A DNA stretch of 64,000 nt, taken from NCBI RefSeq assembly GCF_004365635.1, contig NZ_SOBH01000001.1:496001-560000 (forward strand). Direction: 5' to 3'. Origin of the DNA: Litoreibacter halocynthiae (GTDB lineage Bacteria; Pseudomonadota; Alphaproteobacteria; Rhodobacterales; Rhodobacteraceae). The notes under the pieces were generated by a model. It was given only the letters and a program-made list of their open reading frames with translations, was not told where the DNA came from and searched no databases. The number at the start of each line of letters is the position of its first letter. Within the stretch, counting starts at the first letter, position 1. This document shows positions 51,709 through 56,869 of this stretch, piece after piece. The translations under genes and the position numbers were made by a program.

Positions 51709-52392
51709 CTAATCGCAGATGCCGTCCAACTCTACCCCTTTCCATGGTAGCACCATCTTGGCGTTGTCGAGGCGGGTTGTCATGGCGGCAAGGTCGAAAT
51801 GGGGTTGCATTAGCCGCTCCAGCCGCGTGGTGCGTGGGGCCTTGGGGGCGAGGGCGGCGCAGCAGACGTATTCTGCGGCGATAGCACCTTGTTGCTCGTA
51901 GCCGAAATCGAGAAACTCTGCGGTGTTGGACAGCTCGAACAGGTAGGGGTCGGGGTGGCTTTGGTGTTCCTGCGCGGCTTTGAGCGGGTGGTAGCCGGTG
52001 GCCGCGCGGTTTTGCCATTGCCAGACATGGACCAACTCATGGGCCAGAAACATCGACGCCAGAAGCAAGGCCGCGTCCGGGTAGGCGGGCAGGTAGTCTC
52101 GGGCAATGTAGTCCGGGTTCACGTTGATTGTATTGAATAAAACTGTGGCGCCCGGGGCGCTGGTGATGGTCGGCTCGGTCACTGGCGGCAGGATTTTCTG
52201 CGCACAGGTGGTGCGGGGCGGGGTCGGGTAGGTGGCGTTATAAAGCTTCAGGACAGGGGCCTGACGGATGCGCACTTTGGAGGTGTCGAGATCGGGACCG
52301 TGGAATTCGGCCGCGAAGCGCATCTCGGCCTCGGACAGGGGGCGACCGCAGGCGGTAAGGCTCAGGAAAGCAAGGAGAATTAGCGTGCGCAT
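51709..52392 (-). CDS. Lipoprotein with HELVH zinc motif
   Basis: A 227-residue lipoprotein with lipobox LTAC (Cys15). The central part holds FLAHELVHVWQWQNR, an HExxH motif followed by an aromatic stretch, as in DUF4157-like metallopeptidase-type domains. C-terminal AAEYVCCAAL may add a ligand. It could be a minor zinc peptidase at the envelope, but the activity is not proven. ATG 52392 starts the signal peptide. Co-directional with the SDR gene. Confidence 0.78.
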   Translation of the reverse strand: MRTLILLAFLSLTACGRPLSEAEMRFAAEFHGPDLDTSKVRIRQAPVLKLYNATYPTPPRTTCAQKILPPVTEPTITSAPGATVLFNTINVNPDYIARDYLPAYPDAALLLASMFLAHELVHVWQWQNRAATGYHPLKAAQEHQSHPDPYLFELSNTAEFLDFGYEQQGAIAAEYVCCAALAPKAPRTTRLERLMQPHFDLAAMTTRLDNAKMVLPWKGVELDGICD

Positions 52393-52498: not shown

Positions 52499-52885
52499 AT
52501 GAAAATTGTTTATTTACTGGCACTTGGCCTGTTGGCAGGATGCACGCAGGAGCCGCCCACAGGGGCGCAGTTGTTTGCGGATAATTGCACGGCGTGTCAT
52601 GGCGCGGATGGCACCGGATCGGGCTGGGTGGCGTCGGGTCTGGAGCGCAAGCCAGCGAACCTGACGACCTTAAGTGCCCGTAACAAAGGCGTTTTCCCTA
52701 TGGAGCGGGTGTTGAGCACCATTGACGGTTTCCACCGGAATCCGGCGTTCGAGACGGCGATGCCGGAGTTTGGCAGCTTCTTTTCGGGGCCGATGGACCA
52801 GATCGAACTGGACGGGGTGATGACGCCTGTGCCGGAGCCGTTGCTGCTGGTGGCGGAGTATCTGCGAAGCCTTCAAACGGAGTGA
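52499..52885 (+). CDS. Small c-type cytochrome, lipoprotein form
   Basis: A 128-residue class I cytochrome c. The lipobox LAGC (Cys15) anchors it to a membrane. Heme attachment is at CTACH (residues 30-34), and MPEFG near residue 88 probably supplies the axial methionine. The region ANLTTLSARNKGVFPMERVL has a direct counterpart in the next gene. A GGAGGCGC ribosome site precedes the ATG. It may pass electrons in a respiratory chain; partner unknown. Confidence 0.88.
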   Translation: MKIVYLLALGLLAGCTQEPPTGAQLFADNCTACHGADGTGSGWVASGLERKPANLTTLSARNKGVFPMERVLSTIDGFHRNPAFETAMPEFGSFFSGPMDQIELDGVMTPVPEPLLLVAEYLRSLQTE

Positions 52886-53015
52886 TTTTTGCGGTCTGCA
52901 AACGGTCGGCAAAGCGTCGGCTTTGCGTCGGGCATTGAAGCGCGGTTGACGCATATCAAGGCGTGAGGGGCGGTCGCCCTGTAGACTTGGACGTGTCAGC
53001 AGAGGAGTGCACATC

Positions 53016-53411
53016 ATGATCCGATCCATCGCTTTGGCCGTCGCAATTCTGGCCCCACTCACCGCCGCAGCACAGGACGTGGAGGCGGGTGGCGACCTGT
53101 TCATGCAATACTGCGCCACCTGCCACGGGGTGGACGCGAAGGGGGGCGGGCCGATGAACTCGGTCTTGGTGATCCAGCCGACGGACCTGACCCGGCTTGC
53201 GTCCGAGAATGACGGGGTCTTTCCGCGTGTCCGTGCGATCAGCCGGATCGACGGGCGGGACCCGCTGGTGTCGCATGGCAGCCCGATGCCGGTTTTTGGG
53301 CAGTTCTTCGAGGGCCGTGGCGAGACCATCCGCGGCGAGGACGGGGTGATGATCATGACCAGCCAGCCGGTGATTGATCTGGTGGGGTATTTGGAAGGGG
53401 TACAGGAGTAG
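53016..53411 (+). CDS. Small c-type cytochrome, soluble periplasmic form
   Basis: A 131-residue class I cytochrome c with a cleavable signal peptide (residues 1-19, TAAA-Q). Heme is bound at CATCH (33-37) and the axial methionine is probably in MPVFG. The stretch TDLTRLASENDGVFPRVRAI parallels the preceding gene, so the two are paralogues in tandem. GAGGAG lies eight bases before ATG 53016; GTG 53007 is less likely. Confidence 0.9.
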   Translation: MIRSIALAVAILAPLTAAAQDVEAGGDLFMQYCATCHGVDAKGGGPMNSVLVIQPTDLTRLASENDGVFPRVRAISRIDGRDPLVSHGSPMPVFGQFFEGRGETIRGEDGVMIMTSQPVIDLVGYLEGVQE

Positions 53412-53452
53412 GGGTTACTCTTGCTTAACCGGTTTGGGGCAATGTGCCCCCC

Positions 53453-54094
53453 ATGCCGAATTACCGCCGCTTGTGGTCCAAAGGGGCCAGCTATTTCTTT
53501 ACAGTGAACCTCGCCGACCGCCGTGGGCGGTTGTTGGTGGAGCATGTCGATGTGTTGCGCGACGCGGTGCGCCAGACGCGGGCGGAGCGTCCGTTCAAAG
53601 TGGATGCGATGGTGGTGTTGCCAGATCATTTGCATGCGGTGTGGACATTGCCGGAAGGGGACGCGGATTTTTCGACGCGGTGGGGCGCGATCAAGGGGCG
53701 GTTTACACGGGCGGTTGGTAGGGTGGGTTTTCAACCCACCGGTGGCGCAGGTAATGGTGGTGGAGTGGTGGGGTGGAACCCCACCCTACGATCGAGATCG
53801 AAGGTCATGCGCCAAGAGGGCAAGGTGTGGCAGCGGCGGTTTTGGGAGCATTGCATCCGCGACGAGGCCGATTACCGCGCGCATGTGGAGTATTGTTGGA
53901 TCAATCCAGTGAAGCACGGATATGTGGTGCGGGCGGCGGAGTGGCCGTATTCGTCGATCCACCGCGACATCGCGCGCGGGGTGGTCGGGGCCGAGCATGT
54001 AGGGTGGGTGGTACCCGACGGCAAAGCCGGAGGGGTTCACCCACCGACTGGAGAGCGCGGGGAGGCGGTGTTTGATTGGCGGCGTGGTGGGTGA
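53453..54094 (+). CDS. REP-associated tyrosine transposase (RAYT)
   Basis: A 213-residue single-stranded-DNA transposase of the Y1/HUH type that acts on REP hairpins. The HUH-type pair is His59-Leu-His61 in LPDHLHAVWTLP, and the catalytic tyrosine is probably Tyr147 in HVEYCWINPVKHG, preceded by VWQRRFWEHCIRDE. Residues 89-113 (VGRVGFQPT to TLRSRS) are encoded by an inverted REP pair, which interrupts the family sequence between FTRA and the WQRRFWEH block. Residues 183-198 come from a third REP, and the TGA stop lies inside a fourth. ATG 53453 is preferred over GTG 53444. Full activity is uncertain because of the insert. Confidence 0.9.
   Translation: MPNYRRLWSKGASYFFTVNLADRRGRLLVEHVDVLRDAVRQTRAERPFKVDAMVVLPDHLHAVWTLPEGDADFSTRWGAIKGRFTRAVGRVGFQPTGGAGNGGGVVGWNPTLRSRSKVMRQEGKVWQRRFWEHCIRDEADYRAHVEYCWINPVKHGYVVRAAEWPYSSIHRDIARGVVGAEHVGWVVPDGKAGGVHPPTGERGEAVFDWRRGG
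53718..53740 (+). repeat. REP1, inside the RAYT gene
   Basis: GTAG followed by a 7-base stem GGTGGGT-TTTCA-ACCCACC; 23 bases in all. The GTAG foot is the tetranucleotide that RAYT enzymes recognise. It lies in frame inside the coding sequence. Confidence 0.85.
53767..53789 (-). repeat. REP2, inverted to REP1, inside the RAYT gene
   Basis: Read on the minus strand: GTAG followed by GGTGGGG-TTCCA-CCCCACC, again 23 bases. Together with REP1 and the 26-base spacer it forms a BIME-like pair of exactly 72 bases (24 codons). Confidence 0.85.
53999..54045 (+). repeat. REP3, near the 3' end of the RAYT gene
   Basis: GTAG followed by an 8-base stem GGTGGGTG / CACCCACC that encloses a longer imperfect hairpin; 47 bases. 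Same foot and outer stem as REP1. It encodes residues 183-198 of the transposase. Confidence 0.85.
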
Positions 54095-54128
54095 ACCCTC
54101 GCCGTTGGCTCGGAACCACCCACCTTAC
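54086..54128 (-). repeat. REP4, inverted to REP3, spans the RAYT stop codon
   Basis: On the minus strand it starts GTAA (one base different from GTAG) and continues with GGTGGGTG... CACCCACC as in REP3. The stop codon at 54092-54094 is part of the repeat. REP3 and REP4 form the second inverted pair. Confidence 0.85.
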
Positions 54129-54222
54129 AGGTTGGTTAAGCGAGCGGCCTGAGAATGTGAGATGTCGCAACACAGGCCAACATGTGCTAGATAGCGCAAG
54201 CTGAAAATCAGGAATTTTGATG

Positions 54223-54858
54223 TTACACTTCTGTGCCGCTTTCGCCACTTCTAGGAATTTCCTGTTGCTCGGAGTGGTTGGATTCTTCTTCGGTTTTTTC
54301 TTGGAAACTGTCTTTAACTTGATCTAGTGGGGTCTCCGGATGAGGCTCAAATAGTTCATCTTTCTGGTATCGATCCCAGACATCATCAGCTGTGATGAGC
54401 CCGCCTCCCACTGCCGCAGCTGTTCCAGCAATCAATACACAAATTTTGGCAACATCCTTGATTATTTCAATTGCAGTTTTTGTGTCTTTTTCTGATTTTG
54501 CGGCTCTCGTTAATTCAGCGAAAGCTGGATTGATGAATTGACTTTGAAACTCTAGAGTAGAAATATCTGTGTACTTGTCTGCCTTTAGTGCAAAGCGCCT
54601 CGCCTGTTGTCGTGTGATCTTAGCTTGCGACAGGGTCTCAACAACCCGTTCTCTGAACTCATAGTAGGCATCTTTTACTCTAAGCAATTGACCACACTTC
54701 TGGCACGAATGAGTGGTGTTGCTCAATGATATGCTCTCAATGCCTTCCCCTGAAAAAGGAACAGAAATTGAAGTTGGTCCGCAATTCGAACAGAAGGCGG
54801 GCAGGGAATTGCCGAAGTTTCCAGAGAATGTACAATCAACGGCTGTTATTCTTACCAA
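54223..54858 (-). CDS. AT-rich zinc-ribbon membrane protein of unknown function
   Basis: A 211-residue protein with an N-terminal zinc ribbon: Cys23-x2-Cys26 and Cys52-x2-Cys55. A helical middle region (ETLSQAKITRQQARRFALKA), one transmembrane segment (about residues 136-156) and an acidic C-terminal tail rich in Glu and Gln follow. G+C content is far below that of neighbouring genes, and it sits directly beside the RAYT/REP cluster, so it was probably acquired by transfer. No known domain or defence family recognised; a membrane-bound sensor is a guess. Confidence 0.68.
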   Translation of the reverse strand: MVRITAVDCTFSGNFGNSLPAFCSNCGPTSISVPFSGEGIESISLSNTTHSCQKCGQLLRVKDAYYEFRERVVETLSQAKITRQQARRFALKADKYTDISTLEFQSQFINPAFAELTRAAKSEKDTKTAIEIIKDVAKICVLIAGTAAAVGGGLITADDVWDRYQKDELFEPHPETPLDQVKDSFQEKTEEESNHSEQQEIPRSGESGTEV

Positions 54859-54916
54859 TTCTAGGGCCTGCCTATATGCTTTAATTCGCTACAGAAATTT
54901 TGTCTCAAGTAAATTA

Positions 54917-56869
54917 TCATACATCCACATCCTCAACAAACTTGGCGTTCTGCTGGATATACTCGAACCGCAGTTCCGGTTTTTTGCCCATCAGGCGTTC
55001 GACCAGGTCGCCGGTCTCGCCCGGCTCGTCCTCTTGCACGGTGACGCGGATGAGGACGCGGGAGGCGGGGTCCATTGTGGTTTCTTTCAGATCCTTCGCA
55101 TCCATCTCGCCCAGACCCTTGAAGCGCTGCACGTCGATTTTTCCCTTGCCGCCCAAGCCCTTCGCCATAGCGGCTTCCTTCGCGACATCATCAGCGACGT
55201 AGAGCCGTTTGGGGCCTTGGGTCAGGCGATAGAGCGGCGGGCAGGCGAGGTAGAGGTGGCCCTGGTCGATCAGCGGGCGCATCTGGATGAAGAAGAAGGT
55301 CATCAGCAGCGACGCGATATGCGCGCCGTCGACATCGGCATCGGTCATGATGATGATCTTGTCGTAGCGCAAATCCTCGACGTTGAACTTGGTGCCCATG
55401 CCGACGCCCAAAGCTTCGCATAAATCGTTGATCTCGGAGTTCGAGTGCAGCTTGCCGGAAGCGGCCCCCAGCACGTTGAGGATTTTGCCCTTGAGCGGCA
55501 ACAGCGCCTGCGTGACGCGGTTGCGCGCGCCCTTGGCGGAGCCGCCCGCCGAGTCGCCCTCGACGATGAACAGCTCGGTGCCTTCGCGGGTTTTGCTGGT
55601 GCAGTCGGTGAGTTTGCCGGGCAGGCGCAGCTTCTTGGTGGCGGATTTGCGGGAGGTTTCCTTCTCCTGCTTGCGGCGCAGGCGTTCCTCGGCCCTGAGC
55701 ACGAGGAAATCTAGGATGGCACCGGCGGATTTGGTGTCGGAGGCGAGCCAGTTGTCGAAGTGGTCGCGGACGGCGGCCTCGCAATATTTGGCGGCGGCCT
55801 CGGTGGACAGGCGGTCCTTGGTCTGGCCGACGAAAGCGGGGTCGGCGATGAAGCACGACACCAGCGCACAGCCGCCGGACATCAGGTCGTCGCGGGTGAT
55901 CTGCGCGGCCTTCTTATTGTTGGTCAGCTCGCCATACGCCTTGATGCCCTTGAGGATCGCGGCCCAGAAGCCGGTGACATGGGTGCCGCCCTCGGGCGTG
56001 GGGACGGTGTTACAGTAGCTCTGGATGAAGCCGTCGCGGGCGGGGGTCCAGTTGATCGCCCACTCGACCTTGCCCGCGGCGTTGAACTTTTCGTTGAAGT
56101 CGACGGTGCCTGCGAAGGCGGTGTCGGCATAGGTGGTGGATTTGCCGAGCGTTTCCTTAAGGTAATCCGACAGGCCACCGGGGAAGTGGAAGGTGGCGGT
56201 GGCGGGGGTCTCGCCGTCGTCGATTTCCGTTTTCCAGCGGATTTCCACGCCGGAGAACAGATAGGCCTTGGAGCGGATGGACTTGAACAGGCGGGCGGGC
56301 TTGAAGCGGTGGTTGCCGAAGATTTCGGCGTCGGCGTGGAAGGTCACCGTGGTGCCGCGGCGGTTCTGGGTGGGGCCGATTTTTTCGATGGGGCCAAGGG
56401 GCAGACCACGGGAGAAGCGTTGCTCGAACAGCTCCTTGTTGCGGGCGACCTGGACGACCATGCTGTCGCTGAGCGCATTGACCACGGAGGCGCCGACGCC
56501 GTGCAGACCGCCGGAGGTCTGGTAGGCCTTGCCGGAGAACTTGCCGCCTGCGTGGAGCGTGCAGAGGATGACTTCGAGGGCGGATTTGTCGGGGAACTTG
56601 GGGTGCGGATCAATCGGGATACCGCGCCCGTTGTCGCTGATCGTGACGGAGTAGTCGGCGTTCAGCGTGACTTCGATGCGGTTGGCGTGCCCGGCGACGG
56701 CCTCGTCCATGGAGTTGTCGAGGACTTCCGCCACCAGATGGTGCAGCGCGCGCTCGTCGGTGCCGCCGATATACATGCCGGGACGTTTGCGGACGGGCTC
56801 CAGCCCCTCCAGCACCTCGATGGAGGAGGCGTTGTAGTCATCTGGCCCACTGGAAAGAAGGTCGCTCAT
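54917..56869 (-). CDS. parE: DNA topoisomerase IV subunit B
   Basis: The ATPase subunit of topoisomerase IV, which decatenates daughter chromosomes. The 650-residue protein has the GHKL motifs (EVLDNSMDEA, ISDNGRGIP, GGLHGVGASVVNALS), the transducer domain, and the TOPRIM domain with EGDSAGGSAKG, LPLKGKILNV and DADVDGAHI. The C-terminal ELRFEYIQQNAKFVEDVDV identifies ParE rather than GyrB, which is longer. parC is not in the window. Confidence 0.96.
   Translation of the reverse strand: MSDLLSSGPDDYNASSIEVLEGLEPVRKRPGMYIGGTDERALHHLVAEVLDNSMDEAVAGHANRIEVTLNADYSVTISDNGRGIPIDPHPKFPDKSALEVILCTLHAGGKFSGKAYQTSGGLHGVGASVVNALSDSMVVQVARNKELFEQRFSRGLPLGPIEKIGPTQNRRGTTVTFHADAEIFGNHRFKPARLFKSIRSKAYLFSGVEIRWKTEIDDGETPATATFHFPGGLSDYLKETLGKSTTYADTAFAGTVDFNEKFNAAGKVEWAINWTPARDGFIQSYCNTVPTPEGGTHVTGFWAAILKGIKAYGELTNNKKAAQITRDDLMSGGCALVSCFIADPAFVGQTKDRLSTEAAAKYCEAAVRDHFDNWLASDTKSAGAILDFLVLRAEERLRRKQEKETSRKSATKKLRLPGKLTDCTSKTREGTELFIVEGDSAGGSAKGARNRVTQALLPLKGKILNVLGAASGKLHSNSEINDLCEALGVGMGTKFNVEDLRYDKIIIMTDADVDGAHIASLLMTFFFIQMRPLIDQGHLYLACPPLYRLTQGPKRLYVADDVAKEAAMAKGLGGKGKIDVQRFKGLGEMDAKDLKETTMDPASRVLIRVTVQEDEPGETGDLVERLMGKKPELRFEYIQQNAKFVEDVDV

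Follow-up and report, generated by a model that had tools for sequence, protein, structure and literature searches.

In-frame REP hairpins in the alphaC-beta4 loop of RAYT transposase genes from Rhodobacterales

Coevolution is assumed for RAYT transposases and their REPs, and to our knowledge it is not settled how such an enzyme and its dispersed substrate stay matched. In Litoreibacter halocynthiae, a RAYT gene carries REPs inside its own reading frame. This raises the question of whether the REPs are peculiar to one gene or recur in its relatives, and of how they relate to REPs elsewhere in the same genomes. The gene lies in the window, by which we mean the whole stretch of 64,000 nucleotides that was analysed; its features are collected in Table 1.

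Table 1. Features of the RAYT gene and its REPs, in positions of the window
Feature	Position	Strand	Evidence
RAYT / TnpAREP gene, 213 aa	53453..54094	+	ATG start, TGA stop; NCBIfam NF047646, phmmer and Foldseek to 4er8
HuH motif DHLH, residues 58-61	53624..53635	+	Sequence, alignment
Helix alphaC, residues 73-90 in predicted model	53669..53722	+	AlphaFold2 model
REP1, GTAG foot and hairpin, in frame (within VGRVGFQPT)	53718..53740	+	Sequence, inverted-arm search
REP1-REP2 spacer, coding	53741..53766	+	Sequence
REP2, inverted, in frame (within VGWNPTLR)	53767..53789	-	Sequence, inverted-arm search
WQ, residues 126-127, opens block WQRRFWEH	53828..53833	+	Invariant in alignments A1 and A2
Catalytic tyrosine codon, residue 147	53891..53893	+	Alignment
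REP3, longer, in frame in C-terminal tail (about 16 residues)	53999..54045	+	Sequence, tails compared
REP4, GTAA foot, inverted partner of REP3, contains stop codon 54092-54094	54086..54128	-	Sequence, folding

The window protein had no Pfam match at E 0.001, so NCBIfam was used; its model NF047646 (REP_Tyr_transpos) aligned from position 1 to 146 with residues 3-167 (E 1.5e-54), which indicates extra residues inside the protein. The only solved-structure sequence match is E. coli TnpAREP (4er8, group 2 / subclass 2.2), found by phmmer at 1.2e-50 in two blocks, residues 1-89 and 124-186, and ranked first by Foldseek for the predicted model (E 1.6e-19). Between the two blocks the window protein has 34 residues and the E. 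coli protein 2, in agreement with the sequence-only reading that this segment is an insertion relative to relatives. The two proteins are alike in fold, HuH motif, WQ block and tail; the REPs of E. coli TnpAREP lie outside its gene. In the AlphaFold2 model the mean pLDDT is 81.5 and the core is predicted with confidence, 134 of the 213 residues reaching at least 90. The model places a helix at residues 73-90 and a strand at 131-134, with pLDDT below 50 at 98-112, so the insert is predicted to be accommodated as a disordered loop. From the ungapped alignment of residues 1-89, helix 73-90 probably corresponds to the helix that contacts the REP stem in E. coli TnpAREP. We found no other RAYT in the genome, the window gene being the sole match at E 0.001, and an Rfam scan of 52500-55000 revealed no family reaching its gathering score.

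Four REPs lie within 411 nt (53718-54128), as the sequence-only reading had it, and its description of each of them held. REP1 and REP2 form an in-frame inverted pair of 72 nt with arms that are 87% complementary, REP3 is in frame near the C-terminus, and the GTAA foot of REP4 is on the minus strand, with the TGA stop inside this last REP. The outer arms of REP3 and REP4 (53998-54015 and 54112-54129) are 89% complementary and the inner arms (54033-54045 and 54086-54098) 100%. In single-stranded DNA folding, both stretches were more stable than shuffled sequences, with z of -2.67 for REP1-REP2 and -5.38 for REP3-REP4. Our strict hairpin detector found REP1 and REP2 but missed the longer REP3 and REP4, and a second detector of similar design gave the same result. 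The claim that the pair added 24 codons needs correction: the 72-nt pair is in frame, but the net gain is about 19 residues. The spacing from F84 to W126 is 42 residues in the window protein and 22 or 23 in 111 of 202 aligned RAYTs, and thus loop residues were partly replaced rather than a clean 24 being added.

To place the gene among its relatives, we collected 230 loci with a RAYT ORF, of which 219 were near full length and 202 remained after removal of duplicates over the first 150 residues; L054 and other partial copies were dropped by these filters. The sample is not random: it comprises the best 80 of 582 matches to the window protein, relatives, and 30 loci from a family search plus 100 that were fetched, and weaker and unlisted matches lie outside it. 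A loop of more than 25 residues or a loop REP was present in 80 of the 202 loci, with a GTAG or GTAA hairpin in 66 of these under a lenient threshold and none in 14; the insert is absent from the other 122. With the strict threshold, loop REPs remain in 61 loci, arranged as a plus-minus pair in 32, a single minus REP in 17, a single plus REP in 5, a minus-plus pair in 4, and more REPs in 3. The proposal that an enzyme had taken in its own substrate therefore stands in that the transposase does contain in-frame REPs, but this is no single-enzyme case. Wholly within the 202 ORFs we identified 117 REP-like sites, 104 in the loop (double-foot and nested sites, e.g. in L046, L128, L142 and L180, being counted once per strand), 13 in the tail and 0 elsewhere, compared with a mean of 0.05 and a maximum of 1 in 20 codon shuffles of the same ORFs. 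Among 77 titled loci, loop REPs occur in 14 of 38 from Rhodobacterales, in 1 of the 3 whose record gives no more than Alphaproteobacteria and in none of the remaining 36 (34 from other taxa and 2 without lineage); all hosts of loop REPs that are named to order are Rhodobacterales. For loci drawn from the window's own family, the count is 43 of 115. In the L180 loop, a REP inserted within another appears to move the local frame and to recode the loop's first half, with the LPVV part kept.

That REPs usually lie outside RAYT genes, as the sequence-only reading assumed, needs care, since the GTAG or GTAA foot of the 3' REP serves as the stop codon in 64 of the 202 loci (e.g. L039). In 14 of those 64 the C-terminus is GE, and the foot contributes to both the final Glu codon and the stop. 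Many relatives end in GE at the corresponding place in the tail, 80 of 202 having GE no more than 4 residues from the end. In the window gene, REP3 is out of the phase in which its foot would be the stop, and translation continues to REP4.

This extended tail, which passes the frequent end of relatives (FGE) and runs into REP4, might be taken together with the few REP copies in the genome to mean that the REP insertions mark the early decay of a gene losing function. We regard such decay as improbable. The window frame of 213 codons and its catalytic residues are intact, and the core is predicted with confidence. For the family as a whole, loss of function is disfavored by conserved motifs and a median dN/dS of 0.20 (1501 pairs with pS below 0.72; a rough value, given how close many pairs come to saturation at synonymous sites). 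Among the 66 proteins with loop REPs by the lenient threshold, [DN]HxH is present in at least 64 (counting the six commonest motifs listed), the catalytic tyrosine in 60 and WQ in all 66; the tyrosine is present in 94 of the 122 insert-free RAYTs.

The closest homologue of the window gene, L014 from a sister species of the same genus, is syntenic with it, since its sequence aligns with the window's flanks on either side of the gene (54921-55687 at 82% and 51856-52367 at 68%). Its loop codes for RVGLHPT...VGWKPTPR, but both hairpins fall short of the lenient threshold, the closing pair being gone from REP1 and the foot, together with a large part of the stem, from REP2. The L014 tail has an in-frame REP of its own. 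As L014 keeps the peptide while its hairpins are damaged, the pair is older than the split between the two lines and has decayed in one of them. Two findings speak in part against the sequence-only reading, namely this segment with damaged hairpins in a close homologue, and the presence outside the gene of only three near-copies of the window REP (C2:181821, C2:390423 and C2:518747). The commoner REP type in this genome is GGGCGGGG, with 7 copies. The 10-mer GTARGGTGGG gave 5+5 matches in the genome compared with 9+11 for the reversed control and was thus uninformative, so that only full hairpins were counted. A REPIN is a dispersed inverted pair of REPs. REP1-REP2 has this layout, two inverted REPs and a spacer in 72 nt, but not the copy number, as the genome holds only the three single near-copies outside the gene.

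We then asked whether the REPs in a loop resemble the other REPs around the same gene. Of the 47 loci that have both loop REPs and further REPs, either elsewhere in the ORF or up to 600 nt from it, 40 share a seven-base arm between the two sets; when partners were shuffled in 5000 rounds, a procedure that ignores kinship, the mean was 7.5 matching loci and the maximum 18. The seven loci without a match to their own other REPs are L017, L041, L042, L122, L128, L131 and L145. REP types were also counted in 34 chosen genomes, with in-gene copies included. Type GGCCGGGC occurs in all 9 genomes with such a loop REP (1 to 22 copies) and in 3 of 25 others, although in the genome of L040 the lone copy is the in-gene one. 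Type GGGCGGGG occurs in all 4 genomes with such a loop REP (5 to 40 copies) and in 9 of 30 others, including that of the window (7), and type GGGTGGGG in all 8 (1 to 40 copies) and in 8 of 26 others; the only GGGTGGGG copy in the window's genome is REP2 itself. The loop REP of L048 is of type GGCCGGGG. Single REPs of the loop type number 22, 21 and 40 in the genomes of L049, L050 and L140, respectively. Counted types are also present in 3 of 5 control genomes without a RAYT match, G022 (2 and 1), G023 (18) and G025 (18).

Type GGGCGGGG REPs number 7 in the window's genome and 18 in G023, and no RAYT of that type was found in either; these are possibly orphan REP families. The idea that the in-gene pair is a simple copy of a neighboring REPIN found no support, as the spacers differ even at equal length (L037, 78 nt in both).

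One account of these patterns is that they are a neutral by-product. REPs would land preferentially near RAYT genes, only the loop and the tail would tolerate them, they would have no role, and their likeness would reflect recent insertion or gene conversion. The confinement of REPs to the loop and tail is consistent with this, as are the decayed hairpins of L014 and the 14 of 80 long or REP-bearing loops that have none. New REP copies have been described, in the part of PMC2817692 covered here, as arising preferentially near the rayt gene. Ordinary genes also contain in-frame REPs: Pfam domains were detected in 2 of 10 long REP-spanning ORFs tested. In one (L267:805-826, at C2:210304-210325 of the window's genome) a GTAGGGCGGGGTTCACCCCGCC REP codes for GGGVNPALRG within a carboxyl transferase gene (PF01039, 9.4e-149), and in the other (L253:801-822, G179) a GTAGGGCGGGGTTCACCCCGCC-type REP lies in frame between the glutamine amidotransferase and SIS domains of a GlmS-like gene. 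Thus, tolerance alone could account for the presence of the REPs.

What makes the neutral account unlikely, though it keeps a real share of our belief, is the pattern of change at the DNA level. The comparison was limited to 12 loops of equal length with an LPVV-type spacer, as other lengths could not be codon-aligned safely. Synonymous identity, measured as identical codons where residues agree, reached 0.73 and 0.81 in REP1 and REP2, respectively; the spacer, at 0.45, was close to the core of the gene, at 0.44, where the highest of 125 seven-codon windows gave 0.672. The spacer has therefore drifted to background while the arms have not, so that in these 12 loops the insert has had time to diverge and its REPs have been maintained or rewritten. 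The stems also covary: pairing holds in 98.2% of cells, and 12 cells carry changes in both partners, values not reached in 500 shuffles, and control structures slid along the sequence pair at 33-57%. Two of five covariation measures, which count doubly changed pairs and pair types, fell within the shuffles (148 and 212 of 500). Ten of the 12 loops form the loop-closing pair in both REPs, and it is the same in both, C-G in five loops and G-C in five. Recent insertion is disfavored, because it would leave the spacer undiverged; gene conversion remains compatible with these data. In at least one loop group, then, the hairpins are kept at the DNA level while the spacer drifts, and the data fit upkeep by selection as well as by gene conversion or REP activity.

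Alternatively, the hairpins might be kept for autoregulation, with the RAYT binding its own in-gene REPs, or mRNA hairpins slowing translation or destabilizing the message, so that the amount of transposase is limited. The maintenance in the 12 loops and the foldback of both window pairs beyond shuffles (under single-stranded DNA parameters) would fit, and PMC3733652, in a covered passage, raises the possibility that RAYTs are down-regulated by REP hairpins. However, 122 of the 202 RAYTs lack the insert, and hairpins in the flanks could do equally well, and we give autoregulation only a small chance.

The reading phases of the REPs bear on how often the insertion occurred. Of 46 plus REPs, 44 are read in a single phase and the two exceptions are both in L180; a TAG codon would arise in the third phase. 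Among 58 minus REPs, 50 are in phase 1, 5 in phase 2 and 3 in phase 0. Five of these eight odd-phase cases (L052, L156, L158; L017, L125) belong to other REP families, from which we infer more than one insertion, and those in L142 and L180 are nested or mirrored readings. The uniform phase elsewhere fits common descent, and also protein constraint. The core tree (202 rows, 136 columns, 27 changes) is poorly resolved and leaves a single origin of the insert undecided, as the starred branches force only 1-3 changes.

Loop cassettes also seem to have moved between RAYT genes, as seen in one gene pair and supported for a group. The genes of L066 and L139 are closely related (pS 0.19, dN/dS 0.16). 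L139 has a type-A pair, and L066 a leftover type-A REP1 followed by a type-B cassette up to W126, which we read, from the two sequences, as a probable exchange of loop cassettes between RAYT genes. The 23 loops with an LPVV spacer are not a clade on the core tree; when they were forced together, the likelihood fell by 230 lnL units (p-AU 4.8e-76), a result to be read with the few columns in mind and with the fact that the group was set by loop peptide after an earlier tree had been seen.

In-frame REPs within tnpAREP genes are not new. In the sections of Quentin et al. 2018 (PMC6006769) covered here they are described as a unique feature of subclass 2.4, which has the motifs NH[IFV]H and YIxNNP and a variable insert between beta3 and alphaC and is abundant in Cyanobacteria and Bacteroidetes. 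The window gene shares the in-frame REPs, but its motifs are DHLH, WQ, YCWINP and PYSS, without NH[IFV]H or YIxNNP, its insert comes after alphaC and before beta4, and the hosts named to order here are Rhodobacterales. Agreement with subclass 2.2, as given in Table 1 and the covered text of that paper, is closer. The window protein has the DHLH motif of that subclass and its tail SS motif (WPYSS, 164-168), and its insert, between helix 73-90 and strand 131-134, is at the site of the short alphaC-beta4 insertion (10 aa), although 34 residues long against 2 in the E. coli protein. The Y motif YIHYNP is YCWINP in the window protein (147-152), with Y and NP kept and the middle residues different; the W motif is given as WE, whereas the window protein has WQ, like the E. 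coli example in the same paper (W94 Q95). By its motifs and insertion site the window protein thus appears to fit subclass 2.2 better than 2.4, with an equivocal match in the Y and W motifs.

Palindromes in frame within proteins have precedents of other kinds. GTAG REPs within host genes, described in PMC3733652, are likewise in frame, code for 20-30 residues and can supply TAG stops from their feet, but the targets named in the main-text section covered are repair, tRNA-related and other genes, and RAYTs are not among them. The Rickettsia palindromic elements (RPE) mentioned there are similar. In the literature covered, which excludes most subscription papers, we found no description of in-gene REPs for any RAYT from Rhodobacterales or from subclass 2.2, and the terms 'rhodobact' and 'alphaproteobacteria' are absent from the main text of PMC6006769. 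Nor did the covered parts of PMC3733652, PMC6006769, PMC2817692, PMC8266576 and PMC3686654 yield the cognate match, the DNA-level upkeep or the cassette exchange. In-frame REPs in RAYT genes are therefore known, and what is added here is the subclass, the site, the cognate match, the upkeep at the DNA level and the exchange of cassettes.

Taken together, we consider it somewhat probable that the alphaC-beta4 loop of these group-2 (subclass 2.2-like) Rhodobacterales RAYTs is a standing docking site for their own REPs. REPs, single or as a REPIN-like inverted pair, would have entered the loop in frame more than once, most likely through the RAYT acting near its own gene. They would then have been inherited, and cassettes swapped between RAYT genes by recombination. 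The hairpins may be kept by ongoing processing or rewriting by the enzyme, or because a linked substrate is useful, two possibilities that the data do not separate. The window copy has an intact loop pair and a further in-frame REP in its tail, but its present activity is doubtful, given the few other REP copies in the genome.

The position of the loop invites one further speculation. In the covered part of PMC8266576, K82 on helix alpha3 of E. coli TnpAREP contacts the REP stem, and GTAG is contacted by beta1, by residues around beta4 (Q95, R104) and by C-terminal residues. The short alphaC-beta4 insertions of subclass 2.2 are placed close to the REP-recognition region (PMC6006769, covered sections). 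As the REP-encoded loop sits between the stem-contacting helix and the GTAG-reading strand region, the peptide encoded by the in-gene REPs might help to recognize the same hairpin, and the cassette might be a swappable specificity module, although we think this very unlikely. If true, substrate and reader would be altered together by a single cassette swap. This would account for both the match between internal and flanking REPs and the movement of cassettes (L066 and L139). In these genes a copy of the substrate is physically within the gene of its enzyme; natural variants differ in REP type, some copies have decayed, and at least one cassette appears to have been swapped. This opens to direct testing the coevolution of RAYTs with their REPs, the upkeep of REPs in cis, and the possibility that a recognition loop is encoded by the substrate.
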